Of a stretch of DNA of 34,959 nucleotides, positions 7,543-32,473 are shown piece by piece; positions within the stretch are counted from its first letter, which is position 1, and each line of letters opens with the position of its first letter. The notes under the pieces were generated by a model. That model ran no database searches. It had not been told where the DNA came from and saw only the letters and a list, made by a program, of their open reading frames with translations. The position numbers were made by a program, and so were the translations under genes. The DNA comes from Streptomyces rochei. GTDB lineage: Bacteria; Actinomycetota; Actinomycetes; Streptomycetales; Streptomycetaceae. The DNA is taken from positions 1 to 34,959 of the forward strand of contig MUMD01000057.1 in the NCBI GenBank assembly GCA_002155895.1, read 5' to 3'.

Positions 7543-8235
7543 TCAGCGCACGCTGATGCCCAGCGCTCCGGTGCCGGCCCGCCGCAGGGCGACGGAGCCG
7601 TAGGGCGTGCGCAGCCGCAGCCACGCTCCCGAGGAGAAGAGCACGGGCGCGTCCTCACCGGAGCCGGACGCCCCGGAAGGCGCCCGCAGGAACCCCAGGG
7701 ACTGGGCCGCGTGCACGGCCCGCACCGGCAGCCCGGTGTCGCCGACCGTCCGGGACCATATGTCCCGCCCGATCCGGTCCAGCTCGGCCCGCGTACGGTC
7801 CCCGGGCGCCAGCTCACCGGTGCGGGAGCGGAACTCCGCCACCGCCGCGGCGACCAGGGCCCGCAGGGCGTCCGGCGCCGGCAGTCCCGGCTCGGGCCGC
7901 CAGCCGCCGCGCGGCGGCATCATCCCGGCCCAGGGAGGGCCGGTGACGGCGCCCGGGACCACGGCGGTGGCCGCCGCCTCGTCCACCGTCTCCAGCAGCT
8001 CACCGGCGGAGACGGTCACGTCCAGGGTGACGTCGAGCCCGTTCTCGTACGGCTTGGCCAGCCGCACCGCGCGCACGGCCAGCACCTCGAAGGACGGGGG
8101 CCGCCCGAAGACGGCGAGGGCCGTGCCGGCCCCCTGGAGGCGCACCGCGGCGGAACGGTCGTAGTGGAGCAGCCGGGAGAGGAAGGCCGCGAGATCGGCG
8201 GCCTCCCCCTCGTCGGCCAGGTGCAGGACCGTCAT
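7543..8235 (-). CDS. Conserved hypothetical protein downstream of thioesterase
   Basis: 230-residue protein without a recognised domain, signal peptide or membrane helix. The ATG at 8235 overlaps the stop of the thioesterase gene (ATGA, 8232-8235), implying translational coupling. The sequence has a mixed alpha/beta look, with 'AVRLQGAGTALAVFGRPPSFEVLAVRAVRLA' type strands (about 26-58), a Gly/Pro-rich middle with GMMPPRGGW (about 104-112), and a C-terminal half with 'TRAELDRIGRDIWSR' and 'AVHAAQSLGFL'. The frame is open further upstream within the thioesterase gene, but that part is shadow sequence. The position suggests a role with the thioesterase or EttA, but no function can be assigned. 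Confidence 0.75.
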   Translation of the reverse strand: MTVLHLADEGEAADLAAFLSRLLHYDRSAAVRLQGAGTALAVFGRPPSFEVLAVRAVRLAKPYENGLDVTLDVTVSAGELLETVDEAAATAVVPGAVTGPPWAGMMPPRGGWRPEPGLPAPDALRALVAAAVAEFRSRTGELAPGDRTRAELDRIGRDIWSRTVGDTGLPVRAVHAAQSLGFLRAPSGASGSGEDAPVLFSSGAWLRLRTPYGSVALRRAGTGALGISVR

Positions 8236-8648: not shown

Positions 8649-10313
<1,665 letters not shown>

Positions 10314-10352
10314 GAGAAACCGTCCGGCAGCTTGATCAGGCAGTGGGCAGAT

Positions 10353-10382
10353 ACACCCCATCTTGCCGCACCGCCACCCCTG
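10353..10382 (+). repeat. attL core (30-bp direct repeat)
   Basis: Identical, base for base, to 30787-30816; begins ACACCCCATCTTGC and ends CCACCCCTG. It lies 39 bp upstream of the ettA start codon. Similarity to the right end continues for a further 40 bases with seven mismatches (10383-10422 against 30817-30856), including an identical GAAACGCGTTCCC block. Confidence 0.9.
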
Positions 10383-10489
10383 GGAGGAAACGCGTTCCCT
10401 GCGGGGGCTCTGACCTGGCCTTTCCTGGATGCCCCCGGAGCCCCACCTGTCACTGTCGGTCGCTATCGATCGGCCTCGGGCACCCTCGC

Positions 10490-10509
10490 ACGGCCCAGAG
10501 ACGGCCCAG
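10490..10509 (+). repeat. Candidate integrase arm-type site, left (P' arm)
   Basis: ACGGCCCAG-AG-ACGGCCCAG, itself two 9-bp direct copies, is identical over 20 bases to 30693-30712 near the other end. It lies 107 bp inside the left core. Paired repeats in both arms of attP are what tyrosine integrases of the lambda/pSAM2 type bind; function here is inferred. Confidence 0.55.
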
Positions 10510-10521
10510 CCCGAGGGTTGC

Positions 10522-11208
10522 TCAGGAGGCATCGGACGGGGTTCGCGCCAGGACCCCGGTGCCAGACAGGGGGGTTTCTGCCGTCAGGGCGAGCGGGCTG
10601 ACACCCAGCAGGGCAGCGATCTCCGGCGCCATGTGCAGGGTCTCCCACGACCACTCGTCTTCATCGTCTTCTGTCTCGGTTGCCGCATCCCAGCTCGTGG
10701 CCAGCCCCAGGTCCTCTCGGCGGGAGCACTCGTACTTGAGGGGCTCTCCCAGCGTCAGGTAGTGGTCGTCTCCCTCGCCGGTCTCGCAGTAGCGGCGTAC
10801 AACCGTTCCTCGCTCTGCAACCAACCAGGCCGATCCGTCGCCCTGCGCGCCGTAGTAGTAAGCCTGCGCCTGCCCATAGCGGGCACTCAGCTCTTCGCAC
10901 ATCTGCAGCACACTGTCCGAGCGCTCACTGTTGCAGGGATCGCACCACCGCCCGATGATCAGTGTCCATCCGTCGAGTTCCGGGCTCACATACACCCGGG
11001 CAAGCCCTTCGGCGGCGGCGTGACTGTCCGCGTCGATGACCTCTTGCGCAGAGCTGAAAGAAACGGGCACGGCGTCCGTCAGCCCTAGAAGGGCCATGAC
11101 CCCGAGCTGATCCCCGGTTGGTACCGCAATCCAATGAAGCCAGCACGACGAAAGCGGCCTGGGCAGCAGATCAGGTGTGGATGTAGTCACTGCGGCACGC
11201 TTGCACAT
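10522..11208 (-). CDS. Hypothetical protein at the attL end of the element
   Basis: 228 residues (ATG 11208; GTG 11190 is an alternative giving VTTSTPDLLP). I do not recognise the family. The sequence has no signal peptide or membrane helix. The middle looks like a mixed alpha/beta fold: 'GWTLIIGRWCDP' (about 80-91), 'MCEELSARYGQAQAYYYGAQGDGSAWLVAERG' (103-134), then 'VVRRYCETGE'; the C-terminal part is acidic (ETEDDEDEWSWE). It starts 43 bp after the stop of the GntR gene on the same strand and may be co-transcribed from that autoregulated promoter. Being the gene nearest the left end, it is a typical position for accessory or immunity cargo, but no role can be assigned. Confidence 0.7.
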   Translation of the reverse strand: MCKRAAVTTSTPDLLPRPLSSCWLHWIAVPTGDQLGVMALLGLTDAVPVSFSSAQEVIDADSHAAAEGLARVYVSPELDGWTLIIGRWCDPCNSERSDSVLQMCEELSARYGQAQAYYYGAQGDGSAWLVAERGTVVRRYCETGEGDDHYLTLGEPLKYECSRREDLGLATSWDAATETEDDEDEWSWETLHMAPEIAALLGVSPLALTAETPLSGTGVLARTPSDAS

Positions 11209-11251: not shown

Positions 11252-12007
11252 TCAGCGACTGATCGGGATCTCGTACACGATCTCGCAGTGGGCAGCGGGC
11301 ACCACGATGTCCGCCGTCTCTACGGGGCGACCGTCGTCGCTGTAGTACGTCCGCCGAATGTGCGTGACAAGGGCGGCTTTCTGGATGCCGAGTAGCGACG
11401 CCTCCTCGGCGGTCGCCTGCCTCGGCTCTGGCTGCTCCACGGCATGGCTGACCGTGATGCCGATCGTGGCCATACGGTTCACGACGCCCGTTCCAGCATG
11501 CGGCCCGCCCTCGGGGAGAACGACGAGAGTGCCGGCGGTGAGTTCGTACGGCTCCCAACTCGTCGACAGCTGCACCGGCCTGCCGTCCGCCAGGAACTCA
11601 TACGCCGTCCGCACGCACAGTTCACCCTCGTCGACCCCGAGTCGCGCTGCGATATCTGCGGGGGCCGGCACCTTGGCGTCCGTCCGACTCTCCCAGTCCC
11701 CCTGCCTACCCACGGCCTTCATGTCGGCCCGGAAGGGCGACCCGCTCGGCTGCTCGCGCGCCGACGAACGCACCACCCGCACCCGCTGTCTGGGCTCGGC
11801 GACATAGGTACCCGACCCAGCGCGGCCTTCCAGCACGCCTTGGGAAATCAGCAGCTCTTGCGCCCGACGGACCACGTTCTCGCCTACGCCGCACTCCTGG
11901 CCGATCTGCGCGCGAGAGGGCAGGCGGTCTCCCGGCTCCCACAGGTGCTCCGCGATCCGCCGCCGGAGTTCGTCGGCGACGCGGAGATAGGGCGGCTGCT
12001 CAGGCAT
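11252..12007 (-). CDS. GntR-family transcriptional regulator (HutC/UTRA type), left module
   Basis: 251 residues. An N-terminal winged helix-turn-helix of GntR type (about 8-70) has 'RLPSRAQIGQECGVGENVVRRAQELLISQGVLE' characteristics, ending with the wing 'RAGSGTYV'. The C-terminal UTRA-like ligand domain (about 110-245) includes 'LCVRTAYEFLADGRPVQLSTSWEP' and ends 'EIVYEIPISR'. No ribosome site precedes ATG 12007; instead TAGATT lies six bases before it, with TTAACT 18 bases further upstream, which suits a leaderless mRNA. Two palindromes overlap this promoter, so autorepression is likely. KorA/KorSA-type GntR repressors control transfer and copy genes in Streptomyces elements; this one faces a divergent operon of small genes. 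Confidence 0.88.
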   Translation of the reverse strand: MPEQPPYLRVADELRRRIAEHLWEPGDRLPSRAQIGQECGVGENVVRRAQELLISQGVLEGRAGSGTYVAEPRQRVRVVRSSAREQPSGSPFRADMKAVGRQGDWESRTDAKVPAPADIAARLGVDEGELCVRTAYEFLADGRPVQLSTSWEPYELTAGTLVVLPEGGPHAGTGVVNRMATIGITVSHAVEQPEPRQATAEEASLLGIQKAALVTHIRRTYYSDDGRPVETADIVVPAAHCEIVYEIPISR

Positions 12008-14957: not shown

Positions 14958-15680
14958 TCATGGCCACTGCTCTTCTGCGAGGGGTGCATTGTTCAGCTGG
15001 GCGCGCAGGCTTCGCCAGTTCGGCATGAACTTGTCCATGAGCTTAGTGAAACGGTCGTCGTGGTGGCGCTGCAGGTAATGCGCCATTTCGTGGACGACGA
15101 TGTACTCCAAGCAGGCCGGGGGCTTCTTGGCAAGTTCGACGTTGAACCAGATGTGTCCGGTTTCGCGATTACAGGATCCCCACTTAGTCTTCATGCGCTT
15201 GATACTCCACCACGGCACTGATACATCGAGGATCGATTCCCATTTGGCGATCAGGCTCGGTAGCACATGTCGAAGCTGCTCTCGATACCAACGATCAAGC
15301 AGCTTGCGGCGCCGTTCGGCTGAGGTGCCGGCCGGAACGAACAGCACTAGTCGCTCACCGTCTAGCTCGAAGTGAGCCCGTCCAGGGCGTTCAACGACCT
15401 TCATCCGGTGTCGAACACCCCACACGTAGTGAGACTCGCCTGTCACCACCTCCCGCGTGGACTGTCGTGCAGCCGACCGAAGTTGCTCACGCTGCTCTTT
15501 GATCCACGGCAGGCGTTGGATTACGGCGAGCCTCACCTGCTCATCATCGAACTGGTGCGGCGCTGCTACTCGGACGCGTCCAAGGGGCGGATAGACGCCG
15601 ATGTGCAGGTTCTTGATGTCTTTGTAGGTGACGTCGACGTCAATACCACGGATGGTGAGATAGCCACTAGCGGTACTCAC
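14958..15680 (-). CDS. YgjP-like (DUF45/SprT-type) zinc metallopeptidase
   Basis: 240 residues. The zinc-binding motif HEMAHYLQRHH is at about 196-206 (HExxH plus a third His further on), preceded by the family phrase 'MKTKWGSC' (about 165-172) and 'EYIVVHE'. These define the YgjP/DUF45 family of intracellular putative metallopeptidases. Members frequently sit beside hsdR in type I restriction loci; their substrate is not established. The ATG at 15680 overlaps the end of hsdR by 14 bases, so translation is coupled to restriction-subunit synthesis. It may process or turn over HsdR, but this is inference from position only. Confidence 0.88.
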   Translation of the reverse strand: MSTASGYLTIRGIDVDVTYKDIKNLHIGVYPPLGRVRVAAPHQFDDEQVRLAVIQRLPWIKEQREQLRSAARQSTREVVTGESHYVWGVRHRMKVVERPGRAHFELDGERLVLFVPAGTSAERRRKLLDRWYREQLRHVLPSLIAKWESILDVSVPWWSIKRMKTKWGSCNRETGHIWFNVELAKKPPACLEYIVVHEMAHYLQRHHDDRFTKLMDKFMPNWRSLRAQLNNAPLAEEQWP

Positions 15681-18600
15681 GACGTGCCTTTACTAGTTCA
15701 AGCAGTTCATCAAGCCGGTCGAAGTCAGCAGGCAGCGCTTGAGCGAGCGCGCGCCTGACCCTCTTCTCTCTCATTGGATTGCCTACCCACGAGTCGGGTT
15801 TGGTGTGGAGGACAGTGGTGTCCACGACCGCGGCCAGCTCCGGCGCTTGACCGAAGAAGTCGATCAGGGCGCGGCGGGCACCGTTGTCAGCCCACTCAGG
15901 ATACGCGGTGTCTGATTCGCCCTTGCCGAGCTTCGACGCGTGCTCCAGCAACCTCGCCAGGTACTCCTTGTAATCCAGAGCCCCCTGCCGCCGTTCCTCG
16001 AGTATGGCGTCGAGCAGTTCCGACATCTTGTCGTAGTACTTAGGGTTCATTGGGCGCTCGTCGATGATCACCTTGCGCACGTTGTTGGTGATCGTCTCCG
16101 CCACCGCTTCGGGATCCTTTTTGATACCCGCGGGAAGCTTGTCGAGCGCGCCAGCCCCCATCTCGACGATCAACTGGACCAACCCCCTTTCCTGGAAGTT
16201 TGAGACCACCTCGGAGGGAGTGGCGCTGATGTACGTGTCGAGCAGGTGCCGCATGCCGGCCTCGTACTGTTTGAAGTCGACGTTCTCGCCAGCGCCAAGT
16301 TTGACCTCGTCGCGTACGTTGGCGTAATGGGCGATCTCGTCCTTGATCGCTGCGGCTTCGGCGTCGCTGTATCCAGCGTCCTGCATTTCGTTGGCGAGGT
16401 TACTGTACGCGCGGGTTACAGCCGCCACAGCTTTATAGAGCTCAACGCGCTTGGGTTCATTGGCCTTGAGTTGCTCGGCGTTGCCCTGCTCGCGGGCGCA
16501 GAAGTACTGCTGGTACTGAAGAGTGTTCTTCGGCGGCTCGACCAGTTCACAGAGCGCTCGGATCTTCTCCAGGGCTACATCGAGGTCGTCACAGGCTCTA
16601 TCGATCCGGTCGGACAGCAGCCCCTCGATGTCCTTCGTCTCGTAGCCTTCGAGGGCACCTCCGGTATAGTCCGTGATCGCGGATTCAAGAGAATTGAACA
16701 GGTCGCGATAGTCGACGATGTAGCCGTATTCTTTGTCCTCGCCGTCGAGGCGATTGACCCGGCAAATCGCCTGGAAGAGGCCGTGATCCTGCATCTTCTT
16801 GTCGATGTACAGGTACGTCGTGCTTGGAGCGTCAAAGCCGGTCAGGAGCTTGTCGACAACGATGAGCAGCCGCATCTGGCCCGGGTCGTTGATGAAGCGT
16901 TCCTTGACGTCCTTCTCAAACTGCTCGACCTTGCCCACTGCCTTATCGGCGGGCTCGTTGAAATGGTCCGCGAGCATCTGCCGGTAGATCTCGTACTGAC
17001 GTAGCCGCTCAGTGGCTCCGTGGCCGGAGTCCTCCTTAGAGATGTCGCTGGCCTGTGGCGTATACGACGTGACGATGGCGCACTTGCCCTTGAACCCAGC
17101 CTGAATGAATAGCTCGTAGAACTTGCATGCCTGGTAGATGCTCGAACTGACGAGGATGGCATTGCCGCGGCCGTCCGACAGGCGTGGCTTGATCTCCATG
17201 TCGAGCAAGATGTCATTGACTATCTGCCGGGCGCGCGGTTCCGAGCTGACGACCTTTTGGATAGTTCCCCAGCGCTTCTTGAGCTCAGCGCGGGACAAGT
17301 CCGTCATGCCTCGGGTCTTGGCCTCAAACCACTGGTCGACCTTTGCCGGCGAGGTCAGGTCCTGGTCGATGTTGCGAGCCTCGTACCGCAGGTCCAGCAC
17401 AACGCCGTCTGCAACGCCCTCGTCGAACTTGTATGTATGGATGAAGCTTCCGAACCGCTCGATGGTGGTCGCCTTGTCGACCTTGAGTAGGGGCGTACCA
17501 GTGAAGCCGATGAACATGGCACCCGGCATGAGCTCCTTCATGGCGTCGTGCATCTTGCCCGACTGGGTACGGTGCGCTTCGTCGACGAAGACGAAGATGT
17601 TGCCCTTGGCGTCGAAGTCCCTGGGGATGGTCGCCTTCAGCTCACGGATGAACTCGCTCTCAGCGTGGTCGCGAGCGGACTCGTCCTCCGAACTGCGGAA
17701 CTTGTGAACCAGCGAGCAGATCAGCCACTCCTCGCTCGCATTCAGTGTGGCGAGCAGGTCAGCGCTGCTCTTCGTACGATAGATAGACTCGTTGACTCCC
17801 CGGAAAACTTTCTGGATCTGATCATCCAGTTCAGTCCGGTCAGTAATGAGGAGTACACGAGCGTCCGGCTGGTTCTCGCGGATCCACTTGGCCAGCCAAA
17901 CCATCGTCAGCGACTTGCCGGAGCCCTGAGTGTGCCAAACGATGCCGCCCTCGCGCTTGCCGATCCGCTGTTGGGCCGCCTTGACGCCGAAGTACTGGTT
18001 ATGCCGACAGGTCTTCTTCTGCCCCGCGTCGAAGACCATGAAGTCGTGAACCAGCTCAAGTAGACGTTTTTTCGAACAGAGCTGAGTCAAGGCACGATCG
18101 AGCGGATCGGCAATGTCGGACGGCTCACGCCACGTCAGCCAATACTTCTCCGGCGTGTCGATAGTGCTGTAGCGAAGCCCCTCCACGTCGTTGCCGGCCA
18201 TAACGAGTTGCACCGTCGTGAAGAATGGACGAATAAACTCGGGCCGTTGGTTTCCGATGCTCTGCCGAATACCTTCGGAGACGGCGACCTTCGAGCGCTT
18301 GAGCTCGATCGTCCCGAAGGCCATGCCGTTGACGTAGAGCACGATGTCCGGACGCTTTGTGTGCTGCCCGAGGACCGTCACTTCCTCTGCTAAGGCGAAG
18401 TGATTGGTCTCGGGGCGCGCCCAGTCGATGAGCCACACCGTCTCCGTCTGCTCGCCTACGCCGGGCTTGACCTTCACCCCGTACCGCAGCAGGCCGTAGA
18501 CGTCACGGTTCGCCTCGTACAGATCGCGGCCACCACCGAGCGAAGCGTCGCTCTTCAGCTTGTCGATCGCCTTGTTGATGAGGTTGTCGCTGTAACCCCG

Positions 18601-18753
18601 GGCAAGGAGGTTCTGCGTGAGCAGCTCAACATCGATGTTGGCATTGCCCTGCCGGTACTCCCAGTTGCCCAGGTACTCGTAGCCCAACGACTCTCGGAAC
18701 AGATCGACGACACGATCTTGAGCCTTGCGCTCGGGTTGCCCGACGTTACTCAT
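15667..18753 (-). CDS. hsdR: Type I restriction enzyme R subunit (HsdR)
   Basis: 1028 residues, full length. The N-terminal nuclease domain has the PD-(D/E)xK signature RPDIVLY...GTIELKR (about 134-155). The SF2 translocase motor follows: Walker A WHTQGSGKS (about 270-279), DEAH box VFVDEAHR (about 387-394), motif III GFTGTPLL and a motif VI region 'ICRVNRLDGEDKEYG'. A helical C-terminal domain contacts HsdM. HsdR cuts unmodified DNA after ATP-driven translocation in an R2M2S complex. Its ATG overlaps the hsdS stop (ATGA, 18750). The gene has noticeably more A/T-ending codons than the neighbouring transfer genes, suggesting a different origin. Confidence 0.95.
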   Translation of the reverse strand: MSNVGQPERKAQDRVVDLFRESLGYEYLGNWEYRQGNANIDVELLTQNLLARGYSDNLINKAIDKLKSDASLGGGRDLYEANRDVYGLLRYGVKVKPGVGEQTETVWLIDWARPETNHFALAEEVTVLGQHTKRPDIVLYVNGMAFGTIELKRSKVAVSEGIRQSIGNQRPEFIRPFFTTVQLVMAGNDVEGLRYSTIDTPEKYWLTWREPSDIADPLDRALTQLCSKKRLLELVHDFMVFDAGQKKTCRHNQYFGVKAAQQRIGKREGGIVWHTQGSGKSLTMVWLAKWIRENQPDARVLLITDRTELDDQIQKVFRGVNESIYRTKSSADLLATLNASEEWLICSLVHKFRSSEDESARDHAESEFIRELKATIPRDFDAKGNIFVFVDEAHRTQSGKMHDAMKELMPGAMFIGFTGTPLLKVDKATTIERFGSFIHTYKFDEGVADGVVLDLRYEARNIDQDLTSPAKVDQWFEAKTRGMTDLSRAELKKRWGTIQKVVSSEPRARQIVNDILLDMEIKPRLSDGRGNAILVSSSIYQACKFYELFIQAGFKGKCAIVTSYTPQASDISKEDSGHGATERLRQYEIYRQMLADHFNEPADKAVGKVEQFEKDVKERFINDPGQMRLLIVVDKLLTGFDAPSTTYLYIDKKMQDHGLFQAICRVNRLDGEDKEYGYIVDYRDLFNSLESAITDYTGGALEGYETKDIEGLLSDRIDRACDDLDVALEKIRALCELVEPPKNTLQYQQYFCAREQGNAEQLKANEPKRVELYKAVAAVTRAYSNLANEMQDAGYSDAEAAAIKDEIAHYANVRDEVKLGAGENVDFKQYEAGMRHLLDTYISATPSEVVSNFQERGLVQLIVEMGAGALDKLPAGIKKDPEAVAETITNNVRKVIIDERPMNPKYYDKMSELLDAILEERRQGALDYKEYLARLLEHASKLGKGESDTAYPEWADNGARRALIDFFGQAPELAAVVDTTVLHTKPDSWVGNPMREKRVRRALAQALPADFDRLDELLELVKARREYR

Positions 18754-20000
18754 GCTGTGCCCTCCTTAGACGGAAGGCGGGTACGACCAGTGAGGAGCTG
18801 CTGCATCAATCCCTGCTTGACGCTCCGTGCTTTGGATAGGCGGTGGTTAAGGAGGACGATCGCCTGATCCATATCGTGCACCGTCTCAGCAATTCGATCT
18901 TGCTCGTGAGGTGGAGGTGTAGGAACTTCGAGAGCCAACAACTTTTCTTTGGGGATGTTCTTCATGCTGCCGCTGGTTCCCGTGGCGAGTTCACGCACCG
19001 CGCGTGAGCCGGATTCGGAGCTCAGGTAGTAGCTGAGCCAGCGCATATTTGTCTGCCTAGCTCCACTTCGTCTAGGGCGGGCCAGCCAAAGGCGATCAGG
19101 AAGGTACAAATGGCTGTAATCGCGCTCGACATATCCGACTTCGCCGACCAGGGCGGGAGTGTTCATTCGACTGATGATCAAGCTTCCCGCTACAGGGTTG
19201 CAGCGCACCCGGCCAATATCTGCAGGAAGTACCGGCTTGGCTTCGGTCGGATCGAATCGGCCATTGCTGACTGCCGATGTCTTTAGCACGGCGACTCCGT
19301 GGAAAGCGTGCTCGGACGAGCGAACACTGACACCAGCTTGTAGTCCGTCAACAAGCTCAGAGAGGCGAGAGCCAGGCCAGCCGGAAAGACGGTCACCATC
19401 GGCCAGGAGGTGCTGTATCAAGCCCTGCTTGACTGCCTTCTTCTTGGCAATCATGCGCTCCAGTGTGGCGATCAGATCATCGGTATCACGAAGCACTGTA
19501 GCGATTCGATACTGCTCAGAAACCGGAGGCATCGGCACCGCGAGCGCTTTAATCTTGGCTAGCGTCAACCGAGTAATGGCATTGCCGGCCATGGCATCTG
19601 CAATCTGCTTCTTACCAGGTGCTGAGAGCAGGTACTGAAGAATGTATCCTTCAGTCGACTTGCGAGGGTTTGTTCGGATGAAGGCGACACTGGAGAGCAA
19701 GCTGATCTCATCTGTGAAGGTATTGATCGCAGCATTGCCAGTGTTGGCGCCGTCCTTGGTGAGTAGCAGATCACCAAAGCGTACATCGCAACGTCGGTAG
19801 ATCTTCTGGTGCTCTTCCTCGGAGATCATCTCGACAGAGTCGAGACGGAGGCGTCCCGTACCGATATTTCGCGACGTGATGTAACGGTACTGATTCCCGC
19901 CGAGGGTTGGCGAGAAGTGCGTACCATCTTGGATCTTTGTACTCACCTCGTCGAGACGCTTGATCTCCCAGTCGGCAGGGAGTGCCGATGCGTCACTCAT
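18750..20000 (-). CDS. hsdS: Type I restriction-modification specificity subunit (HsdS)
   Basis: 416 residues with the two-half HsdS architecture: target-recognition domain 1 (about 5-150), a first conserved helical spacer ('PPVSEQYRIATVLRDTDDLIATLE...KAVKQGLIQHLL', about 158-200), target-recognition domain 2 (about 205-360) and a second spacer ('PPPHEQDRIAETVHDMDQAI...RSVKQGLMQQLLTG'). The recognition sequence cannot be read from the protein. The start overlaps the hsdM stop (ATGA, 19997-20000). The repeated spacers are similar in DNA too (18792-18821 and 19404-19433), which could allow domain shuffling. Confidence 0.93.
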   Translation of the reverse strand: MSDASALPADWEIKRLDEVSTKIQDGTHFSPTLGGNQYRYITSRNIGTGRLRLDSVEMISEEEHQKIYRRCDVRFGDLLLTKDGANTGNAAINTFTDEISLLSSVAFIRTNPRKSTEGYILQYLLSAPGKKQIADAMAGNAITRLTLAKIKALAVPMPPVSEQYRIATVLRDTDDLIATLERMIAKKKAVKQGLIQHLLADGDRLSGWPGSRLSELVDGLQAGVSVRSSEHAFHGVAVLKTSAVSNGRFDPTEAKPVLPADIGRVRCNPVAGSLIISRMNTPALVGEVGYVERDYSHLYLPDRLWLARPRRSGARQTNMRWLSYYLSSESGSRAVRELATGTSGSMKNIPKEKLLALEVPTPPPHEQDRIAETVHDMDQAIVLLNHRLSKARSVKQGLMQQLLTGRTRLPSKEGTA

Positions 20001-22432
20001 GATTCGACCCCCACGTCTGCCAAGTGGCTAGCAACCTTCGCTTCGAGCTTCTCGAGTTCGGCATCTAGCGCACTGACGGTCTCGGCGTACCGTTCACCGA
20101 GTTCCTGAATTCGCGCAACTAGGGAAAGCGTTAGCGAGCTGACCACGCGGGCAACGCGATCTGCGATCGTCGCATGCCACTTATCATCGAGCACAAGCTG
20201 CTTGATCTCGGGCAACGTGAGGTCGCCGTACTTTTTGAGGGTCGCCAGGCTCAGAGCGGCCTGGGCTTCCTTGGCGGCCTTTTTGGCGACGGCTTCGCCG
20301 TTGTACAGCTTGATCAGGTGTTTCAGGGCCTTGATCTCTTCCGGGTCAGCTCCTTCATGTTGGGCCTCTTTGAGCCGCATCGAAGCGAGAGCCTTGGTGA
20401 TCTTTCCGTCGTCCATCGCTTCGGCGAGCAAGCCGTCCTCGACGGCGTGTTCCTCGATGTACTCCTCGACGGCATGGCTGGCTTCCTCGACTGCCGCGTT
20501 CAGTTCGTCAACTTCGACCTGATTCGCTGCGAAGTAGCGAGCGACGATGAAAGCAGGCGGGATGAGGTCCATCTTGTACTTGGTGGCGCTACGCCCCGAG
20601 CCAACGATGAGGTCTGGCGTCTCGGAGAGCTTGCGCTCCTTGTCTTCGATGGTCCTGCGAGGCTTGGCGGCATCCAGCCATCCGTCGTTCATGACGAGGA
20701 AGACATCGTCGTGCATGACGCCGTGCCAGTACGTCATGAGCTGCTCGTAAACGTCGTACTCGTCGAGCAGCGGGGTGTCCTTGAACCGGGCAAGTAGGTC
20801 GTCGCTAATGCGAGCGATCAGATCCTTAGGGACGGTGTTGGCATCAAGGGCCTGGAGGATCGGCCGGTGGGCGGCGAACCAGTCGTTCACTTGGCCGCGT
20901 ACGTCGGTGGCGAACTTCTGAAACTCGTCGGAGTCCAGGACGGTCTGCTGCACCTCGGTCACTCCGACCGCAAGGTCGCTGTAGGCTGGGCGATTTGGTT
21001 TGAAGAGTGTGGCACGAAGGCTCGGGAACGCCTCCCAGTACCCATTGAGTGCGTCCAAGTCGCGGTCGGGGATTCCGCCGTGCAGGTGAGCGTGAAGGTC
21101 CTGGACGTCCTCTGGCTCGGAGGCATCGATGTAGCGCGGGATGTTGAGGTTGTAGTCGTTCTTCGGATCAGCGATCTCGTTAAGCGGCACCATGCGCGAG
21201 TAGCGCTCGATCTCGGTTTGCTTGTTGAAGACGTCGACGATCTTGTGGATGTCCTGGCTCCGGAGGCGGTTCTTGTTGCCGTCCTTGATGAAGCCTTTGG
21301 AGGCGTCGATCATAAAGACGCCGGTGCGCGCCTGGGCGTTCTCCTTGTCGAGGATGATGATGCAGGCCGGAATGCCGGTGCCGTAGAAGAGGTTCGCGGG
21401 CAGCCCGATGATTCCCTTGATGTAGCCGCGGCGCAGCAGCTCCTTACGAATGCTTGCTTCCGCGTGACTGCGGAAGAGCACACCGTGCGGCAGGATGACT
21501 GCGGCCTTGCCTGTGCTCTTGAGTGACTTGAGGATATGCAGCAGGAACGCGTAGTCGCCGTTCTTCTCCGGTGGCCGGCCGTACTCGAAGCGGTCGTATT
21601 CGTTCTCCAAGCCATTGCTCCACGACTTGATCGAGAACGGCGGGTTGGCGACGGCGAAGTCGAAGGTCCGCAGATGCCTCCCCGTGATGAACTGAGGGTT
21701 GGTGATCGTGTCACCTTTGAGGATGTCGGCGTCCTCGTTGCCGTGAAGGATCATGTTCATCTTGGCCAGCGCCCAGGTGGCGTTGTCTTTTTCTTGGCCG
21801 TAGATGGTAATGCCGCGCGGTGCCTCGTCAGCGACCTTGAGGAGCAGCGAGCCCGACCCGCACGTAGGGTCGTAAACCGTGTGATCCTGCCGGGTGCCCG
21901 GCCCGATGCCGACAACCTTGGCGAGTACGCGGGAGACCTCGGCTGGGGTGTAGAACTGACCCTTCGACTTGCCCGACTCCGTGGCGAAGTGGCGCATGAG
22001 ATACTCGTAGGCGTCCCCTAGCAGGTCGTCGCCTTCAGCGCGGCTACCACGGAAGTCCAGGTCACCGAAGATCGTCACCAGCTTGGAGAGGCGATCCTGC
22101 ATCTCCTTGCCCTTGCCGAGCTTCTCCTCGTCGTTGAAGTCCGCCAGGTCGATGACCTTCTCAAGTCCGTTGGCCTCGGCGAGCTTGCCGATGATCTTGT
22201 TGATCCTGTCGCCGATCTCCTTGTCGCCCTTGAGGGCGACCATGTCGTCGAAAGACCCGCCGGCGGGGACGTCGATGAGGGAGTGCGGGTCGGACTTGGC
22301 CTTGTCCGTCACGTACTTCACGAACAGCAGTGTCAGGATGTAGTCCTTGTATTGGCTAGCATCCATGCCACCGCGCAACTCGTCGCAGCTCCGCCAGAGC
22401 GAGCTGTACAGATCGGACTTCTTAAGAGCCAT
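19997..22432 (-). CDS. hsdM: Type I restriction-modification methyltransferase subunit (HsdM)
   Basis: 811 residues from ATG 22432 (MALKKSDLYSSLW), preceded by GGGGGTGG; the frame is open upstream but that part is not protein-like. An N-terminal HsdM_N helical domain (about 5-150) precedes the N6-adenine methylase domain: SAM motif DPTCGSGSLLL (about 185-195) and catalytic NPPF (about 260). The C-terminal third (about 520-811) is an extra charged, helical, partly coiled-coil region ('VDELNAAVEEASHAVEEYIEEH', 'LDAELEKLEAKVASHLA'), making it longer than the ~500-residue EcoKI-type subunit. First gene of the hsdM-hsdS-hsdR-peptidase operon. Confidence 0.95.
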   Translation of the reverse strand: MALKKSDLYSSLWRSCDELRGGMDASQYKDYILTLLFVKYVTDKAKSDPHSLIDVPAGGSFDDMVALKGDKEIGDRINKIIGKLAEANGLEKVIDLADFNDEEKLGKGKEMQDRLSKLVTIFGDLDFRGSRAEGDDLLGDAYEYLMRHFATESGKSKGQFYTPAEVSRVLAKVVGIGPGTRQDHTVYDPTCGSGSLLLKVADEAPRGITIYGQEKDNATWALAKMNMILHGNEDADILKGDTITNPQFITGRHLRTFDFAVANPPFSIKSWSNGLENEYDRFEYGRPPEKNGDYAFLLHILKSLKSTGKAAVILPHGVLFRSHAEASIRKELLRRGYIKGIIGLPANLFYGTGIPACIIILDKENAQARTGVFMIDASKGFIKDGNKNRLRSQDIHKIVDVFNKQTEIERYSRMVPLNEIADPKNDYNLNIPRYIDASEPEDVQDLHAHLHGGIPDRDLDALNGYWEAFPSLRATLFKPNRPAYSDLAVGVTEVQQTVLDSDEFQKFATDVRGQVNDWFAAHRPILQALDANTVPKDLIARISDDLLARFKDTPLLDEYDVYEQLMTYWHGVMHDDVFLVMNDGWLDAAKPRRTIEDKERKLSETPDLIVGSGRSATKYKMDLIPPAFIVARYFAANQVEVDELNAAVEEASHAVEEYIEEHAVEDGLLAEAMDDGKITKALASMRLKEAQHEGADPEEIKALKHLIKLYNGEAVAKKAAKEAQAALSLATLKKYGDLTLPEIKQLVLDDKWHATIADRVARVVSSLTLSLVARIQELGERYAETVSALDAELEKLEAKVASHLADVGVES

Positions 22433-22542
22433 TGCTACGCCACCCCCATACTGGCGCCGACACTGGGGCCTGATCGCAATCCCACGGCGAGGTGTACGTG
22501 CGACCTGTCCATCCTGCGGCGTCCATCCTTCACGTGCCATTG

Positions 22543-24945: not shown

Positions 24946-26301
24946 ATGACGTGGCCGACGGTCTTACTGCTGGTGGTCGTCGCCGCTGCGGGTCTCCTGC
25001 GGTGGCGGCGCCCCGCCTGGTACTGGCTGACCTTCGGGGTCACCCTTGCTGTCGTGCGCGTCCTGGTCCGCTACGCCTCCGTCATGGAGGCCTGCGGGCT
25101 GACGGTCCCGCCCTCGCGCTGGCGCCTCATGCTGGCCCGGATGGCCAACCGTCCGGCACCGGAATCGCGCGCGCCACGCATCCTGCGGCTGCGGCCCACC
25201 CACACCGGCCTGGTCCTTCGGCTCAAACTCCGCCCGGGACAGGACGCCTTCGACGTCGCCGCCACCTCGGACCGGCTGCGCCACTCCTTCGGGATGTACG
25301 GCGTCACCTCCCGTGAGCTGCGCTCCGGTGTGGTCGAGATCCGGATGACCGGCTACGACGTGCTCAAGCGGGTGCAGATGCCGGCCAAGACCGACACCCG
25401 GCCGATGCGTGTCCCGGTCGCACTGAGGGAGGACGGCTCGGTGCACTACCGCGACTACCGCGCCGTCCCGCACGGTCTGACCCTCGGGGCTACGGAGTCC
25501 GGCAAGTCCGTCTATCAGCGCAACCTCGTCGCCGGGCTCGCCCCGCACCACGTCGCGCTGGTCGGCATCGACTGCAAGCAAGGGGTCGAGCTGTTTCCGC
25601 TGGCCCGCCGGTTCTCCGCGCTCGCCGACAACCCTGACACCGCGCTGGAACTGCTGGAGGCGCTGGTGTCCCACATGCAGGACGTGTACCAGCTCATCCG
25701 CGCCGAACAGCGGATCAGCGTTGCCGTGCCGGATGCGGAGATCGCCGCCGACATCTGGGACCTGCCCGAGGACCTGCGGCCGGTGCCGGTCGTCGTCCTG
25801 GTCGACGAGGTCGCCGAACTCGCGCTCTTCGCCAGCAAGGAGGAAGAGAAGCGCCGTGACCGGATCATCACCGCCCTGGTCCGTCTCGCCCAGCTCGGCC
25901 GCGCGGCCGGCGTCTACCTGGAGATCTGCGGGCAGCGCTTCGGATCCGAACTCGGCAAGGGCATCACCATGCTCCGCGCCCAGCTCACCGGCCGCACCGC
26001 CCACCGCGTCAACGACGAGACGTCCGCGAACATGGCCTTCGGCGACATCGCCCCGGACGCCGTCCTCGCCGCCATCCAGATTCCCGCCGAGACACGCGGA
26101 ATCGCCATCGCCGGGGACTCCACCGGCGGCTGGCACCGCATCCGCGCCCCGCACACCTCGCTGCGCCAGGCCGTGAACGTCTGCAACAAGCACGCCGACC
26201 GCACCCCCGAGCTGCCTGCCCTCGCGCCCTTCCGGCCCGCGGTCTCACCACTGCCCTCGGCCCGTGCGCCGCTGTCAAAGACAGCCCCCGCCACCGCCTG
26301 A
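24946..26301 (+). CDS. tra: FtsK/SpoIIIE-like conjugative DNA translocase (Tra)
   Basis: 451 residues. Two N-terminal membrane helices (about 4-17 and 26-43) are followed by a cytoplasmic linker domain and the motor domain: Walker A GATESGKS (about 182-189), 'GIDCKQGVELFPL' (about 206-218) and Walker B VVVLVDEVAEL (about 282-292), then 'RLAQLGRAAGVYLEICGQR'. Streptomyces elements move double-stranded DNA between mycelial cells with one hexameric FtsK-like protein, and this is the candidate. ATG 24946 follows the preceding stop by three bases. A small perfect hairpin (26317-26333) lies after the stop. Confidence 0.92.
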   Translation: MTWPTVLLLVVVAAAGLLRWRRPAWYWLTFGVTLAVVRVLVRYASVMEACGLTVPPSRWRLMLARMANRPAPESRAPRILRLRPTHTGLVLRLKLRPGQDAFDVAATSDRLRHSFGMYGVTSRELRSGVVEIRMTGYDVLKRVQMPAKTDTRPMRVPVALREDGSVHYRDYRAVPHGLTLGATESGKSVYQRNLVAGLAPHHVALVGIDCKQGVELFPLARRFSALADNPDTALELLEALVSHMQDVYQLIRAEQRISVAVPDAEIAADIWDLPEDLRPVPVVVLVDEVAELALFASKEEEKRRDRIITALVRLAQLGRAAGVYLEICGQRFGSELGKGITMLRAQLTGRTAHRVNDETSANMAFGDIAPDAVLAAIQIPAETRGIAIAGDSTGGWHRIRAPHTSLRQAVNVCNKHADRTPELPALAPFRPAVSPLPSARAPLSKTAPATA

Positions 26302-27861: not shown

Positions 27862-29259
27862 ATGGCGCACCGCGCCCCGACCGCGCATGCCCCGCTGCTC
27901 GACCCAACCACCCTCGGCGACCTCCTCCGCGTCGCCTCGGCTCCCGACTACACCCGCTGGGAAGACCAGATTCGCCGCACCGGCGGCTGCTCCGACCCCA
28001 TCCACCTCACCGGCTGGACCCTCCACAAGGACAAGACCACCGGCGAAACCTTGCACCACTACACGACCGCCGTTGAGCCCGGCGGACGCCTCCGTCTCGC
28101 TTGCGGCAACCGCCGCGCCTCCCGCTGCCCGTCCTGCGCCTGGACCTACGCTGGCGACACCTACCACCTCATCCGCGCGGGCCTGGCCGGAGACGACCGC
28201 CGAGACGTCCCCGCCACGGTCCGGGATCACCCGCGGGTGTTCGCCACGCTCACCGCTCCCTCCTTCGGCCCGGTCCACAACCGGCCCGACCACGGCGCCT
28301 GCCGCTGCGGCACCCAGCACGCCCCGGACGCCCCGGAACTGGGCACGGCCCTCGACCCGGCGACGTACGACTACGCGGGCGCCGTCCTGTTCAACAACCA
28401 CGCCGGACAGCTCTGGCAGCGGTTCACCACTCGCCTGCGTCGCGAACTCGCCGCGCGCGCCGGCCTCACCCGCCGGGAACTCGCGGACCGCGTTCGTGTC
28501 TCCTACGGCAAGGTCGCCGAGTTTCAGAAGCGCGGTGCCCTGCACTTCCATGCGGTGATCCGGCTCGACGGACCGGACGGACCAGGAACGCCCCCACCTG
28601 CCTGGGCAACGGTCGGCCTCCTCGCCGACGCCATCCATGCCGCTGCGGCGCACTCCTACACGTCCGTCTCCGTCCCGGCTGTGGGAGACCAACCGGCCCG
28701 GTCGTTCCACTGGGGTACACAGCTCGACGTGCGCCCAGTGAAGGCCTTCGGCGACGGCTCCGACATCACCGAACAGGCCGTCGCCTCCTACGTCGCCAAG
28801 TACTCCACCAAAGCCGCAGAGAACACCGGCACCCTCGACCGCCGCATCGGCGAACTCACCGAACTCGACCGCCACCAGGTCCCGGACCACACCCGCCGAC
28901 TCATCACCGCATGCCGGGACCTGGACCGCCTCTACCCGGACCGGCGCCTCTGGGCCTGGGCTCACATGCTCGGCTTCCGCGGCCACTTCTCCTCCAAATC
29001 TCGCCGCTACTCCACCACCCTCGGCGCTCTCCGCCAGACACGCGCCGACTACCGCGCCGCCCAAGAACAATCCGCCCTCGCTATGGACGACCGTGAGCCG
29101 GACACCGTCCTCGTCCTCACCGACTGGCAGTACGCCGGACATGGCCACACCCCCGGCGAATCCGCCCTTGCCGCCACCATCGCCCGGGACCTCGAGCTCA
29201 ACCGAGAAACCGCACGCGAAGCCCTACGCGACGAACTCGCCAACGAAGGGAAGTGCTGA
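27862..29259 (+). CDS. repSA: Rolling-circle replication initiator (RepSA-like)
   Basis: 465 residues from ATG 27862, with GGAAGGAAG upstream. The HUH-type motif appears as GALHFHAVIR (about 225-234), and the catalytic region as SYVAKYSTKA (about 309-318), where one of the two tyrosines should attack DNA. An N-terminal Cys cluster (CGNRRASRCPSC about 81-92) and a second one (CRCGTQH about 152-158) resemble the zinc-binding parts of the pIJ101/pSAM2 initiators. The protein nicks the double-strand origin, often inside its own gene, to start replication of the excised circle. Two bases separate it from xis. Confidence 0.92.
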   Translation: MAHRAPTAHAPLLDPTTLGDLLRVASAPDYTRWEDQIRRTGGCSDPIHLTGWTLHKDKTTGETLHHYTTAVEPGGRLRLACGNRRASRCPSCAWTYAGDTYHLIRAGLAGDDRRDVPATVRDHPRVFATLTAPSFGPVHNRPDHGACRCGTQHAPDAPELGTALDPATYDYAGAVLFNNHAGQLWQRFTTRLRRELAARAGLTRRELADRVRVSYGKVAEFQKRGALHFHAVIRLDGPDGPGTPPPAWATVGLLADAIHAAAAHSYTSVSVPAVGDQPARSFHWGTQLDVRPVKAFGDGSDITEQAVASYVAKYSTKAAENTGTLDRRIGELTELDRHQVPDHTRRLITACRDLDRLYPDRRLWAWAHMLGFRGHFSSKSRRYSTTLGALRQTRADYRAAQEQSALAMDDREPDTVLVLTDWQYAGHGHTPGESALAATIARDLELNRETAREALRDELANEGKC

Positions 29260-29261
29260 CC

Positions 29262-29459
29262 ATGCCCTCAGAGCTGCCGACCCGGTTCCTGACCCCTGAG
29301 GACCTGGTCGAGATGTTCGAGCTGCCCAGCGTCGAGACGGTCTACCAGTGGCGACGCAAGCGCACCGGTCCCCGCGGCTTCCGCGTCGGCCGGCATCTCC
29401 GCTTCGACCCGAACGACGTGCGGTGCTGGGTCGACTCGCAGCTCAAGGAGGCTGCCTGA
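29262..29459 (+). CDS. xis: Excisionase (Xis), helix-turn-helix of MerR/excisionase type
   Basis: 65 residues from ATG 29262. The pattern 'FLTPEDLVEMFEL..ETVYQWRRKRTGPRGFRVGRHLRFDPNDVRCWVD' is a winged helix of the excisionase family: helix-turn-helix, then the wing GRHLRF. It directs the integrase towards excision. Its stop overlaps the integrase start (TGATG at 29457), giving the usual rep-xis-int unit. Confidence 0.9.
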   Translation: MPSELPTRFLTPEDLVEMFELPSVETVYQWRRKRTGPRGFRVGRHLRFDPNDVRCWVDSQLKEAA

Positions 29460-30721
29460 TGGCCGGACACATCCAGGACCGCTGGTATCGGACCGAGGTA
29501 GGCGCTGACGGCAAGACTCGCAGGGTCAAGACCGACCGCCACGGATCGGGCATGCGCTACCGGGCCCGCTACATCGGCCCCGACGGCACCGAGAAGTCCA
29601 AGAGCTTCCCGGACAAGCAGAAGCGCTTGGCTGACGCCTGGCTGACCAACATCGAAGCTGACATGGCGCGCGGGCAGTACATCGACCCGCGGGCGGCCCG
29701 TGTCACCTTCCGCGAGTACGCGGACCGCTGGCTCGCCGCGCTTACAACCGACCTCACGAGCCGGGCCGCCGTCGAAGGCAGGCTGCGCCTCCACGCCCTG
29801 CCGTATCTCGGCACGCGTCCGATCGGCTCGTTCCAGCCCGAGCACATCCGCGACTGGAACCGTCAGCTCGAAGACGCCGTGTCGTCTGCCCAGTACCGGC
29901 GCCTCATCTTCGACGCGGTGTCCTCCGTGCTCAATGCGGCCGTGGATGACCGTCTCCTGGCCTCGAACCCCTGCCGGGCCCGATCGGTCAAGGCACCTCG
30001 TCCCGCGCCGTCACGCGTCCATCCCTGGTCGGCTGAGCAGGTCTTCGGCGTACGGGCTGGCCTCCCCGAGCGATACCAGGCCATGGTCGACCTGGGTGCC
30101 GGATGCGGACTCCGACAGGGTGAGATCTTCGGTCTGGCCGTCGACAACATCGGCGACCTCGGCTGGCTCTACGTCCGCCAGCAGGTCAAGAAGGTACGCG
30201 GCACACTCGTCTACGCCCCGCCGAAGCGAGGCAAGCTCCGTGACGTCCCCCTCGACCCGGAGGTGTCGACCGCGCTCCGCGAGCACATGGCGGCCTTCCC
30301 GCCCGTGGACGTCACCCTGCCCTGGCTGACCCCGACCGGTCCCAAGGTCACTCACCGGCTCCTCTTCACCAGTGGTATCGGCGCAGCCATCTGGAGCCAG
30401 GCGTTCAACGACCAGTCCTGGAAGCCCGCTCTCGCCTCCGCCGGCATCATCCCGGCCCCCGAGAAGGGCAAGCGCTACGCCGCCGCCCGCGAGCACGGCA
30501 TGCACGCGCTCCGGCACTTCTACGCCTCGGTCCTCTTGGACGCCGGGGAGAGCATCAAGGCCCTGAGCCAGTACCTCGGTCACAGCGACCCGGGGTTCAC
30601 CCTCCGGGTCTACACGCACCTCATGCCGTCCAGCGAGACACGGACCCGGAAAGCCATCTCCGCGATGTACCGGGCCGCCGGTCACGCTCACGACGGCCCA
30701 GAGACGGCCCAGGCTGCCTGA
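29459..30721 (+). CDS. int: Site-specific tyrosine integrase
   Basis: 420 residues from ATG 29459. An N-terminal arm-binding segment (about 1-60, 'RYRARYIGPDGTEKSKSF') and SAM-like core-binding domain (about 80-170) precede the catalytic domain. Catalytic residues: Arg219 in GCGLRQGE, His349 and Arg352 in HALRHF, the GHSD segment (about 375) and the nucleophile Tyr385 in VYTH. It should recombine attP with the chromosomal 30-bp core 65 bp downstream of its stop. The 3' end of the gene also carries a candidate arm site (30693-30712), so that DNA is both coding (HDGPETAQ) and possibly recognised by the protein. Confidence 0.95.
   Translation: MAGHIQDRWYRTEVGADGKTRRVKTDRHGSGMRYRARYIGPDGTEKSKSFPDKQKRLADAWLTNIEADMARGQYIDPRAARVTFREYADRWLAALTTDLTSRAAVEGRLRLHALPYLGTRPIGSFQPEHIRDWNRQLEDAVSSAQYRRLIFDAVSSVLNAAVDDRLLASNPCRARSVKAPRPAPSRVHPWSAEQVFGVRAGLPERYQAMVDLGAGCGLRQGEIFGLAVDNIGDLGWLYVRQQVKKVRGTLVYAPPKRGKLRDVPLDPEVSTALREHMAAFPPVDVTLPWLTPTGPKVTHRLLFTSGIGAAIWSQAFNDQSWKPALASAGIIPAPEKGKRYAAAREHGMHALRHFYASVLLDAGESIKALSQYLGHSDPGFTLRVYTHLMPSSETRTRKAISAMYRAAGHAHDGPETAQAA
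30693..30712 (+). repeat. Candidate integrase arm-type site, right (P arm)
   Basis: Identical over 20 bases to 10490-10509. A further partial copy, AGACGGCCCC, follows at 30721-30730. It lies 74 bp inside the right core, at the 3' end of int. Confidence 0.55.
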
Positions 30722-30786: not shown

Positions 30787-30816
30787 ACACCCCATCTTGC
30801 CGCACCGCCACCCCTG
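30787..30816 (+). repeat. attR core (30-bp direct repeat)
   Basis: Perfect copy of 10353-10382. It lies 65 bp beyond the int stop and 67 bp from the stop of the surface-protein gene. The chromosomal side (30817-30856) shows 33 of 40 identities with the element-side sequence next to attL. Confidence 0.9.
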
Positions 30817-30883
30817 CGCGGAAACGCGTTCCCGACGGAGCCTCTGACCTGGGCTTACGCCGGGTCGGCTCCGGGGGTGTGGG

Positions 30884-32296
30884 TCAGGGGCGTTCTTCGC
30901 GGCGGCGGAGGAGCAGGAGGACGGTGCCGCCGATGGCGACCAGGCCTATGGCCGTGCCGCCGATCAGGGGGGTGACGCCGGAGCTGCCGGTGTCGGCGAG
31001 GTTGGTGCTGGGGCCGGGAGTGACGACCGGGGTGGAGGGGGCCGGCTCGGTCAGGGTGTGGGTGGTGTCGGCGAGGGCGGCGCTGCGGGTGCGGCAGTCG
31101 AGGACACCGGCGAAGCGCTGCTCGAAGCCGGCCGGGCCGCGGACGGTGAAGTCGTAGGGCCGGTCCTCCGGCAGCGGGACGGACAGGGTCCGGGCCTCGC
31201 CCGCCGCGATGGTGTACTCGGTGTCCAGCAGCTCGAAGGTGAAGTCCTCGTCGCCCTTGTTGGAGGCGGTGATGTCGAGGGCGCCCTCGGCGCAGTTCTT
31301 CCGGGCGGACAGGGCCGGTATGGGGCCCTGGTCGGCCCAGGTGGCGGTCGCCGTCGCCGTGACCGTCGACTCGCTGGAGCCGGCCAGGATCTGGGTCTGG
31401 CTGCGGCTCTCGGAGGCGAAGGCCCGGCCGACCGGCACGGTGGTCGAGGCCTGGACGGTCAGTCCCGCGGTGCCCGGTTCCGCGTCCTTCGGCACGTCGA
31501 AGTAGATCTGCGTGCCGTCGGTGACGGAGGTGACGGGGGCGCCGTCCTTGTCGACGATCCGCACGCCGCCCGCGGTGGCGTCGACCGGCGGGGTCACCGT
31601 CGCGCCGCCCGCGTCGGTGCGTACCGTCACCGGGCCGAGTCGCTCTCCGGGGCGGCCCGCGACGGCGGGCGGGTCCAGGGAGAGCGACGCGGCGGGCTCC
31701 GCGAGGTGGCGGGCCTTCTCCTCCAGGTAGTCGGCGAGCCGCTCCGCCTGGGGGTCGGTCGCCTCGACGTCGGTGTCGTCCGAGTAGCGCCAGATGGCCA
31801 CCTGGGTGCCGGCCGCCGCGTCCTGCTCGGTGAGCCCGCCGCGGACACCGGCCTTCTTCGCGAGCGCGGCCAGGTCGTTGACCTGGGGGTAGGAGTTCTG
31901 CAGGATCCAACGGACCCGCCCGGCGTCGTCGTTGGTGCCCAGCGAGGTGCCGCTCCACGGCGTCTCGCGGTACTTGGCGTCCTGCTGGGTGGGGTTCTGG
32001 ATGTCGACGCAGTACGTCTGCAGCATGCCGCCGCCGTCGACGGACATCTCGAACAGGCCGGCCGGCACCTCCTGGTCGCCGTCGGCGCCGTGGATGACGG
32101 CGGTGCCGTGCGTCTTGAGGCCGCCTATGGTCGCCGTCGCCCCGCCCTGTCCCCGCGACACCCCGTCCTGCGCGGCCGCGGCCGGGCCGGCGCCGGTGAC
32201 CACCCCGGCTGCGGCGACCGCCGACACCAGCGCCGCGGCGGCGAGTCGGGTGGCTCCTCGACCGGGCAGGGACAGCGCAGTGAACGAAGAAAACAC
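30884..32296 (-). CDS. Cell-wall-anchored thioester-domain (TQXA) surface protein with LAXTG signal
   Basis: 470 residues. The start is GTG 32296 (AGGGGA five bases upstream; TTG 32299 is an alternative). A signal peptide (about 1-43, hydrophobic core then GPAAAAQ) leads to a TQXA domain with Cys in YCVDIQNPT (about 95) and Gln in TQVAIWRYSDD (about 163), the pair that forms an internal Cys-Gln thioester used for covalent adhesion. Beta-sandwich regions follow. The C terminus has NLADTG (about 431-436), a membrane helix (about 442-462) and RRREERP, a substrate signal of class E sortases common in Streptomyces. Without the element this gene would lie about 140 bp upstream of ettA. Confidence 0.9.
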   Translation of the reverse strand: MFSSFTALSLPGRGATRLAAAALVSAVAAAGVVTGAGPAAAAQDGVSRGQGGATATIGGLKTHGTAVIHGADGDQEVPAGLFEMSVDGGGMLQTYCVDIQNPTQQDAKYRETPWSGTSLGTNDDAGRVRWILQNSYPQVNDLAALAKKAGVRGGLTEQDAAAGTQVAIWRYSDDTDVEATDPQAERLADYLEEKARHLAEPAASLSLDPPAVAGRPGERLGPVTVRTDAGGATVTPPVDATAGGVRIVDKDGAPVTSVTDGTQIYFDVPKDAEPGTAGLTVQASTTVPVGRAFASESRSQTQILAGSSESTVTATATATWADQGPIPALSARKNCAEGALDITASNKGDEDFTFELLDTEYTIAAGEARTLSVPLPEDRPYDFTVRGPAGFEQRFAGVLDCRTRSAALADTTHTLTEPAPSTPVVTPGPSTNLADTGSSGVTPLIGGTAIGLVAIGGTVLLLLRRREERP

Positions 32297-32473
32297 CAAA
32301 TTCCCCTTCGAGCAGGACCCGTTGGCGTGGGGGGCACGGTCCCACCAGCAGAATCAGCAGCCCCGCAGGGCTCGTTCGGCATCCTAAGGACATGACCGAC
32401 CGCGCCCGCCGGGGATGCTCTCTCCCGCGGTGATCCGAATCGGAATCGTTATCGCGGACAGGGGCGTGAGCAG

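Follow-up and report, generated by a model that had tools for sequence, protein, structure and literature searches.

Genes of the element and its neighbours

The stretch of DNA analysed here (34,959 nucleotides of Streptomyces rochei, contig MUMD01000057.1, referred to as the window) contains a 20.4-kb element of the AICE type, which is bounded by attL (overlap at 10353) and attR (overlap at 30787). The element codes for a GntR/UTRA regulator, type I restriction-modification cargo, an FtsK-type Tra, RepSA and a tyrosine integrase. The relevant genes are the following.

8649..10313, minus strand: ettA, TTG start at 10313 (NCBIfam NF008775, 936 bits; TIGR03719, 906.6 bits; both above the cut-off); the gene whose upstream DNA is exchanged
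11252..12007, minus strand: GntR/UTRA regulator of the element (PF00392, PF07702)
24946..26301, plus strand: FtsK/SpoIIIE-type transfer protein, Tra (PF01580)
27862..29259, plus strand: RepSA replication initiator (PF20199; NF041486, 864 bits)
29348..30721, plus strand: tyrosine integrase (PF00589), with relatives about 65-94% identical at the same site in other genomes
30884..32299, minus strand: neighbour gene, a LAETG-anchored surface protein (TIGR03934, NF041528), which adjoins ettA in element-free genomes

The restriction-modification cargo is made up of HsdM, HsdS and HsdR (15667-22540, all on the minus strand). Judged from its genes, the element is best read as a pSAM2-type AICE: both the FtsK/SpoIIIE-domain Tra (PF01580) and the RepSA initiator (PF20199, NF041486) are present, and the integrase, which ends at 30721, adjoins one of the two att sites (attR). 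Excision, replication and transfer are putative functions. A GntR-type regulator is found in pSAM2 as well. The closest named relatives of the integrase are from Streptomyces, and among plasmid records the top relatives are 88% and 62% identical. No tRNA or tmRNA gene was found in the window, which does not fit an element that restores the 3' end of a tRNA gene.

Recombination site and crossover point

Offsets are counted from the first base of the overlap (0, which is 10353 at attL), and positive offsets run outward from ettA. The features around the two att sites are listed below.

10345..10352, plus strand: left core-type site B, GGGCAGAT, on the host side; inverted repeat with 10360-10367; attL and attR differ at -1 in 19/19 pairs
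10353..10359, plus strand: 7-bp overlap ACACCCC at the centre of the inverted repeat, the probable site of strand exchange; attL and attR the same in 19/19 pairs
10360..10367, plus strand: right core-type site, ATCTTGCC, whose sense strand holds the -10-like CAAGAT (10360-10365); attL and attR the same in 19/19 pairs; 95-100% conserved per column in 55 element-free sites
10368..10398, minus strand: putative element-supplied version of the conserved ettA block, comprising the spacer and a -35-like region with GGAAAC at 10386-10391 (sense GTTTCC); assigned by column conservation (r 0.61) and attL/attR identity
10410..10418, plus strand: mark D1, CTGACCTGG, at +57 in the P' arm of the element; found with at most 1 mismatch at +56/+57 in 57/143 placed sites, and in 1/56 of those with the neighbour gene within 330 bp
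10449..10462, plus strand: mark D2, GTCACTGTCGGTCG, at +96 in the P' arm; found with at most 3 mismatches at +95..+97 in 38/143 placed sites
10490..10509, plus strand: P' arm-type direct repeats, ACGGCCCAG twice, 11 bp apart (mark D3); a similar pair lies at +137/+138 in many occupied sites
30692..30712, plus strand: P arm-type direct repeats, with equivalents at other occupied loci
30787..30801, plus strand: attR overlap and right core-type site, identical to 10353-10367
30802..30856, plus strand: stretch beyond attR with the conserved ettA block and D1 (30844-30852, at +57); D2 and D3 absent

The plus strand from 10345 to 10367 thus reads GGGCAGAT-ACACCCC-ATCTTGCC, that is, inverted core-type sites flanking a 7-bp overlap, which from general knowledge of tyrosine recombinases we take to be the recombination site of the integrase. 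Pairs of arm-type repeats flank attP on both sides (10490-10509 and 30692-30712). As a lone 10-mer ACGGCCCAG is not rare, with 14 matches of at most one mismatch in the window and as many in 6/100 shuffles. In another genome (L123, G049) a second, degenerate pair of arm repeats lies about 137 bp beyond attR and about 15119 bp from the ettA core, and is probably a stacked arm relic.

The comparison with other genomes was based on two samples. A genus sample comprised 150 genomes including the window's own; G001 and G050 gave no match, G067 and G105 were left out, and 145 were carried forward. A further two (G038, G014) had no recognisable core by the rule of the script, giving 143 placed sites, most of which span 1-2.5 kb upstream. 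The surface protein gene lies within 330 bp of the ettA site in 56 of them. Sites with the neighbour gene at that distance and no element mark were called element-free (55); 25 have full arms (D1 and D3), 32 have D1 without D3 and 31 have neither. Conservation profiles were drawn from the 55 and the 25 only. In addition 31 of 80 named integrase loci were examined. An attR core follows the integrase in 15 of these, one of which (L005) came without an attL sequence and was left out of the pairs; among the 16 loci that lack such a core L008 lies near ettA and the rest appear to be at other targets. For L016, and probably L012, the paired attL and attR come from separate contigs of the same assembly. 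By their coordinates L006 and L007 correspond to G049 and G133 in the genus sample.

It was found that identity between attL and attR is complete from 0 to +14 and is broken at -1 in all 19 pairs, and the pair of G184 behaves alike (20 pairs). Strand exchange would then fall within 10353-10367 and most likely within 10353-10359. From +15 onward attL and attR differ in several genomes, so once the element has integrated this outer DNA is its own. The stretch +7..+14, which includes the -10-like hexamer, is identical on both sides and may come from element or host. The original prediction, that the element supplies a substitute for the DNA upstream of ettA, is partly supported; the replaced part begins near 10360, given a probable exchange in 10353-10359, and not at 10383. 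The gene is EttA (NF008775) and its start codon lies 39 bp from 10353, both as predicted. Insertion is therefore at the 5' side of the host gene; the start codon remains in host DNA, and the element does not supply a new N-terminus.

Similarity of the two sides of the element

Within the window 10353-10382 and 30787-30816 are identical at 30/30 positions and 10383-10422 matches 30817-30856 at 33/40, including GGAAACGCGTTCCC, exactly as had been described. The best other placement of the 40-mer reaches 23/40, and 11/40 is the commonest score when it is placed without gaps along either strand of the window. Identity starts abruptly at 10353, its left edge. The 30-bp core holds for the window, but just 15 bp are identical in every pair compared. 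The first mismatch to the right of the core varies from +15 to +68; since some pairs differ at +15 already, 15 identical bp are enough for any pair.

Beyond these 15 bp the likeness is continued on one side only. Over the 19 pairs attL and attR are 82% identical at +15..+32, 89% at +33..+42 and 58% at +43..+56, and on the host side of the core, at -40..-9, identity is 25%. A second rise to 73% at +57..+65 is seen because many far sides (the stretches beyond attR) carry D1 too. Shifted comparisons gave a background with a mean of 0.283 and a maximum of 0.531 (n=980). The window is GC-rich (69% G+C), which could favour a chance or compositional match, but a score of 33/40 against 23/40 elsewhere and an identity of 82-89% over 19 pairs against 28% in the background refute this explanation, and its probability is negligible.

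A third copy of the block was not found in the own genome, the only extra match being on contig 23 and spanning 10444-10507 of the query. This stretch (7854-7917 of the contig) resembles the distal P' arm, with arm-repeat-like and D2-like sequence and a D1-like sequence nearby, and it may be what is left of a related element.

The conserved block upstream of ettA

In the 55 element-free sites the positions +5..+14 (CCATCTTGCC) and +33..+38 (GGAAAC) are nearly invariant and their spacing is fixed; A35, A36, A37 and C38 are each present in 100%. The columns 0..+4 are partly conserved (commonest base 53-84%) and those from +43 onward are at most weakly so. In the sense direction the sequence of the block is GTTTCC-N20-CAAGATGG, and in 115/143 sites a leader of 33-42 bases comes next. 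The two att copies are the only places in the own genome with GTTTCC-N19..21-CAAGATGG. Among 35 further sites of the family CCATCTTGCC is present in 22, from ten other genera, and it is followed at a nearly equal distance by a GGAAAC-, GCGAAC- or GGTCAC-like motif; the block is absent from the other 13 (mostly genera g2, g3, g4, g5, g11 and g14).

The element arms keep the same pattern. Column conservation in the 25 arms correlates with that in element-free hosts at +15..+46 (r 0.61) and not at +57..+69 (r -0.04), and mean information at +15..+46 is 1.29 bits in the arms against 1.01 bits in the hosts. Loss of the similarity in related elements would have spoken against the original prediction; it was observed instead that A36 and C38 are kept in all 25 arms and A37 in 24. 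Thus, on the side of ettA and on that side only, the element carries a version of the block that is conserved before ettA in element-free genomes.

The match of an arm to its own host

Far sides carry D1 in 12/19 pairs. Eight pairs, G184 included, lack it there, although L012 and L015 have a D1-like sequence with more mismatches. The two sides of these eight pairs match over +15..+46 at 32/32 positions in L012, 30/32 in G074 and in G184, 27/32 in G098, 24/32 in L016, 23/32 in L015, 17/32 in L013 and 13/32 in G058, and over +47..+65 at between 3/19 and 13/19. L013 equals the maximum of the background and G058 lies within it; as neither is clear of the background, the supplied version can differ much from the one that it replaces. 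Far sides without element marks lose the similarity near +42. This restricts the earlier proposal that the whole 40 bp restores a promoter or leader, as 10396-10422 is mostly element arm.

The clearest example is G184, which belongs to another genus and whose integrase is 83% identical to that of the window. Its element matches the own host over 43 bp and then at 4/14 and 1/9 positions, and both sides carry the variant of its own genus, GCGAATGGGT in place of GGAAACGCGT. Over +15..+46 (n=20) element arms match their own far side better (0.828) than the far sides of other hosts (0.660), a difference reached in 0/10000 permutations; over +47..+65 the values are 0.608 and 0.545 (55/10000 permutations). 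The closer match to the own host may come from a shared host lineage or from exchange of the block by crossover, as both are able to produce it.

The stretch beyond attR

The original prediction treated 30817-30856 as the original chromosomal sequence. This stretch carries CTGACCTGG at +57, which is absent from 55 of the 56 sites whose neighbour gene lies nearby; the lone exception has D2 and D3 as well. It is thus unlikely that 30817-30883, D1 included, is native host sequence. The stretch does run right up to the end of the neighbour gene as in element-free sites, L010 and L014 are laid out alike, with D1 and about 140 bp to the neighbour gene, and the presence of D1 tracks host relatedness to some degree. 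Against this D1 is found on the element side only in L013, L016, G098 and G074, and in G184 a shifted D1-like sequence, CTGACCTGC at about +67, is likewise confined to the element side. Moreover, three close relatives (G230, G118, G136) have arm-like sequence at ettA, with the neighbour gene set off from the ettA site by roughly 0.9 to 4.5 kb of additional DNA, and lack an integrase of this type: the best matches elsewhere are 40% and 56% identical, and G118 has none (E 1e-60). CGC at the start of the block is common to G118, G136 and the far side of the window. In G230 (L314) the extra DNA by the solo arm relic, about 1 kb, contains long open frames in several frames (at most 303 codons).

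The neighbour gene lies within 2 kb in 18 of the 57 D1 sites, which is too little room for an element, so these 18 are apparent relics that now stand where the promoter of ettA would be. A weak tree, built on 142 rows and about 214 bp of ettA, gives 19 changes among the sites that have D1 or are element-free. Five supported independent pairs for D1 versus neighbour distance were obtained, of which a mean of 3.2 went in the expected direction and 0 in the opposite one, and the sign test is not significant. The use of D1 as an element mark is therefore partly confounded with host relatedness. Taken as a truncated P' relic of an earlier element, which it probably is, 30802..30856 would make the 33/40 match a comparison between a new arm and, probably, the stump of an older one.

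Possible functions of the block

The block reads as putative -35/-10-like elements of a promoter. The spacing of 20 bp between GTTTCC and CAAGAT is long, a search of 10250-10700 for the sigma-70 consensus found 0 promoters (shuffles 0.1), and a scan for intrinsic terminators returned nothing.

The block up to about +42 could be kept for binding of the integrase or an accessory protein, in which case its likeness to the host would reflect target matching and not restoration. Its place in the attP arm beside the core, and a conservation in the arms that is at least as high as in the hosts, fit such a role. Yet the core-type inverted repeat stops at +14, attL and attR differ at +15 in 4/19 pairs (L009, L013, L014, G058), 6 others show their first difference at +16..+20, and at least part of the block is kept in element-free genomes and in the ten other genera, where no element calls for it. 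We regard binding as an improbable reason for the conservation.

Similarly improbable is that the block acts as an RNA leader or leader peptide of ettA and that the element restores a post-transcriptional signal. An ATG is present within the block in 80/80 sites (55 element-free, 25 arms), which speaks for a leader; no Rfam family was found in the window, which speaks against it. A peptide read from the conserved ATG was considered and rejected, as frames 0, 1 and 2 all occur and the examples compared do not share a conserved peptide. A conserved RNA fold was rejected also: for 36 element-free and 24 arm leaders column shuffles were as low in 14/100 and 11/100.

Proposed mechanism

The best explanation of the whole is that the attL arm of an AICE carries a replacement promoter for ettA, and we give it a probability of about three in four; the promoter activity is read from sequence conservation. 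The integrase would exchange strands in the overlap, probably 10353-10359. The host gene would retain its leader of about 39 bp and lose its own DNA from about 10360 outward, and the attP arm would supply, directly beside the overlap, a substitute for the block of about 40 bp conserved before ettA, in which the sense GTTTCC-N20-CAAGATGG is probably the -35/-10 region. Integration would thus swap one version of the promoter for another without destroying it. Outside the block would follow features that belong to the element arm only (D1, D2 and the arm-type repeats), and the stretch beyond attR would most likely be the stump of an earlier element's arm. The central idea put forward before, that the element makes up for the upstream DNA lost on integration, stands in this corrected form, but the supply starts at the crossover, likeness to a promoter extends to about +42 only, and what was taken for the original copy is probably second-hand.

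Serial replacement of the upstream DNA is likely, confounded as it is with host relatedness. A broader and tentative possibility, to which we give somewhat less than even odds, is that the promoter of ettA is an exchangeable module in the genus. AICEs would overwrite it repeatedly and decay, and strains then free of the element would use the arm left behind as their promoter. A crossover at any point of the shared block could now and then give an element the version of its host and keep the arms host-matched.

Relation to known systems

That an element at a 5' end can bring a promoter is established. IMEVchUSA3 in dusA brings a promoter, as described with a lacZ fusion, and SXT in prfC is cited alongside it (PMC8409611); for dusA islands promoters were predicted in both states (PMC4482086). 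As is proposed for the ettA element, SXT/R391 in prfC and the dusA islands bring a new promoter to a translation-related housekeeping gene by occupying its 5' end (PMC8409611, PMC4482086). They also replace the first codons, whereas the ettA element brings a promoter-like block only and no coding sequence, its exchange point adjoins the predicted transcription start, and its class (AICE) and host phylum are different. The bare promoter block in an AICE is best read as a new variant of the strategy of SXT/prfC and the dusA islands.

With pSAM2-type AICEs as surveyed in PMC3218068 the ettA element shares RepSA, an FtsK-type Tra and a tyrosine integrase beside one att site. The great majority of AICEs with a tyrosine integrase in that survey lie in the 3' ends of tRNA genes, except for the pSLS subfamily; the ettA element in contrast lies upstream of a protein gene and would replace a promoter-like block and not a tRNA end. 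AICEs outside tRNA genes do exist (PMC3218068, PMC9513070), and among the open-licence papers surveyed no AICE at ettA was found. Accretion and decay of AICEs have been described (PMC9513070), and as in the present case successive elements use one site and leave traces of former ones. The word promoter does not occur in the main text of that paper, while at ettA each round would leave a different promoter-like block.

If this reading is true, the rule of restoring what is broken, known for tRNA ends and 5' coding ends, would also cover a bare promoter block, and this in a widespread AICE lineage. Mobile elements could then, as the reading suggests, put a new promoter before a conserved translation gene with its conserved features retained. 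Many natural versions, matched pairs of host and element, and relics without an element are available, and the strength and cost of each version would be directly measurable.

A related observation concerns the choice of target. Integrases 64-69% identical to that of the window (L024, L026, L032, L034, L035, L042) adjoin the apparent 3' end of another gene, which we take to be glutamine synthetase. The integrase family appears to have switched targets, with such glutamine synthetase-like 3' ends lying beside some of its members.
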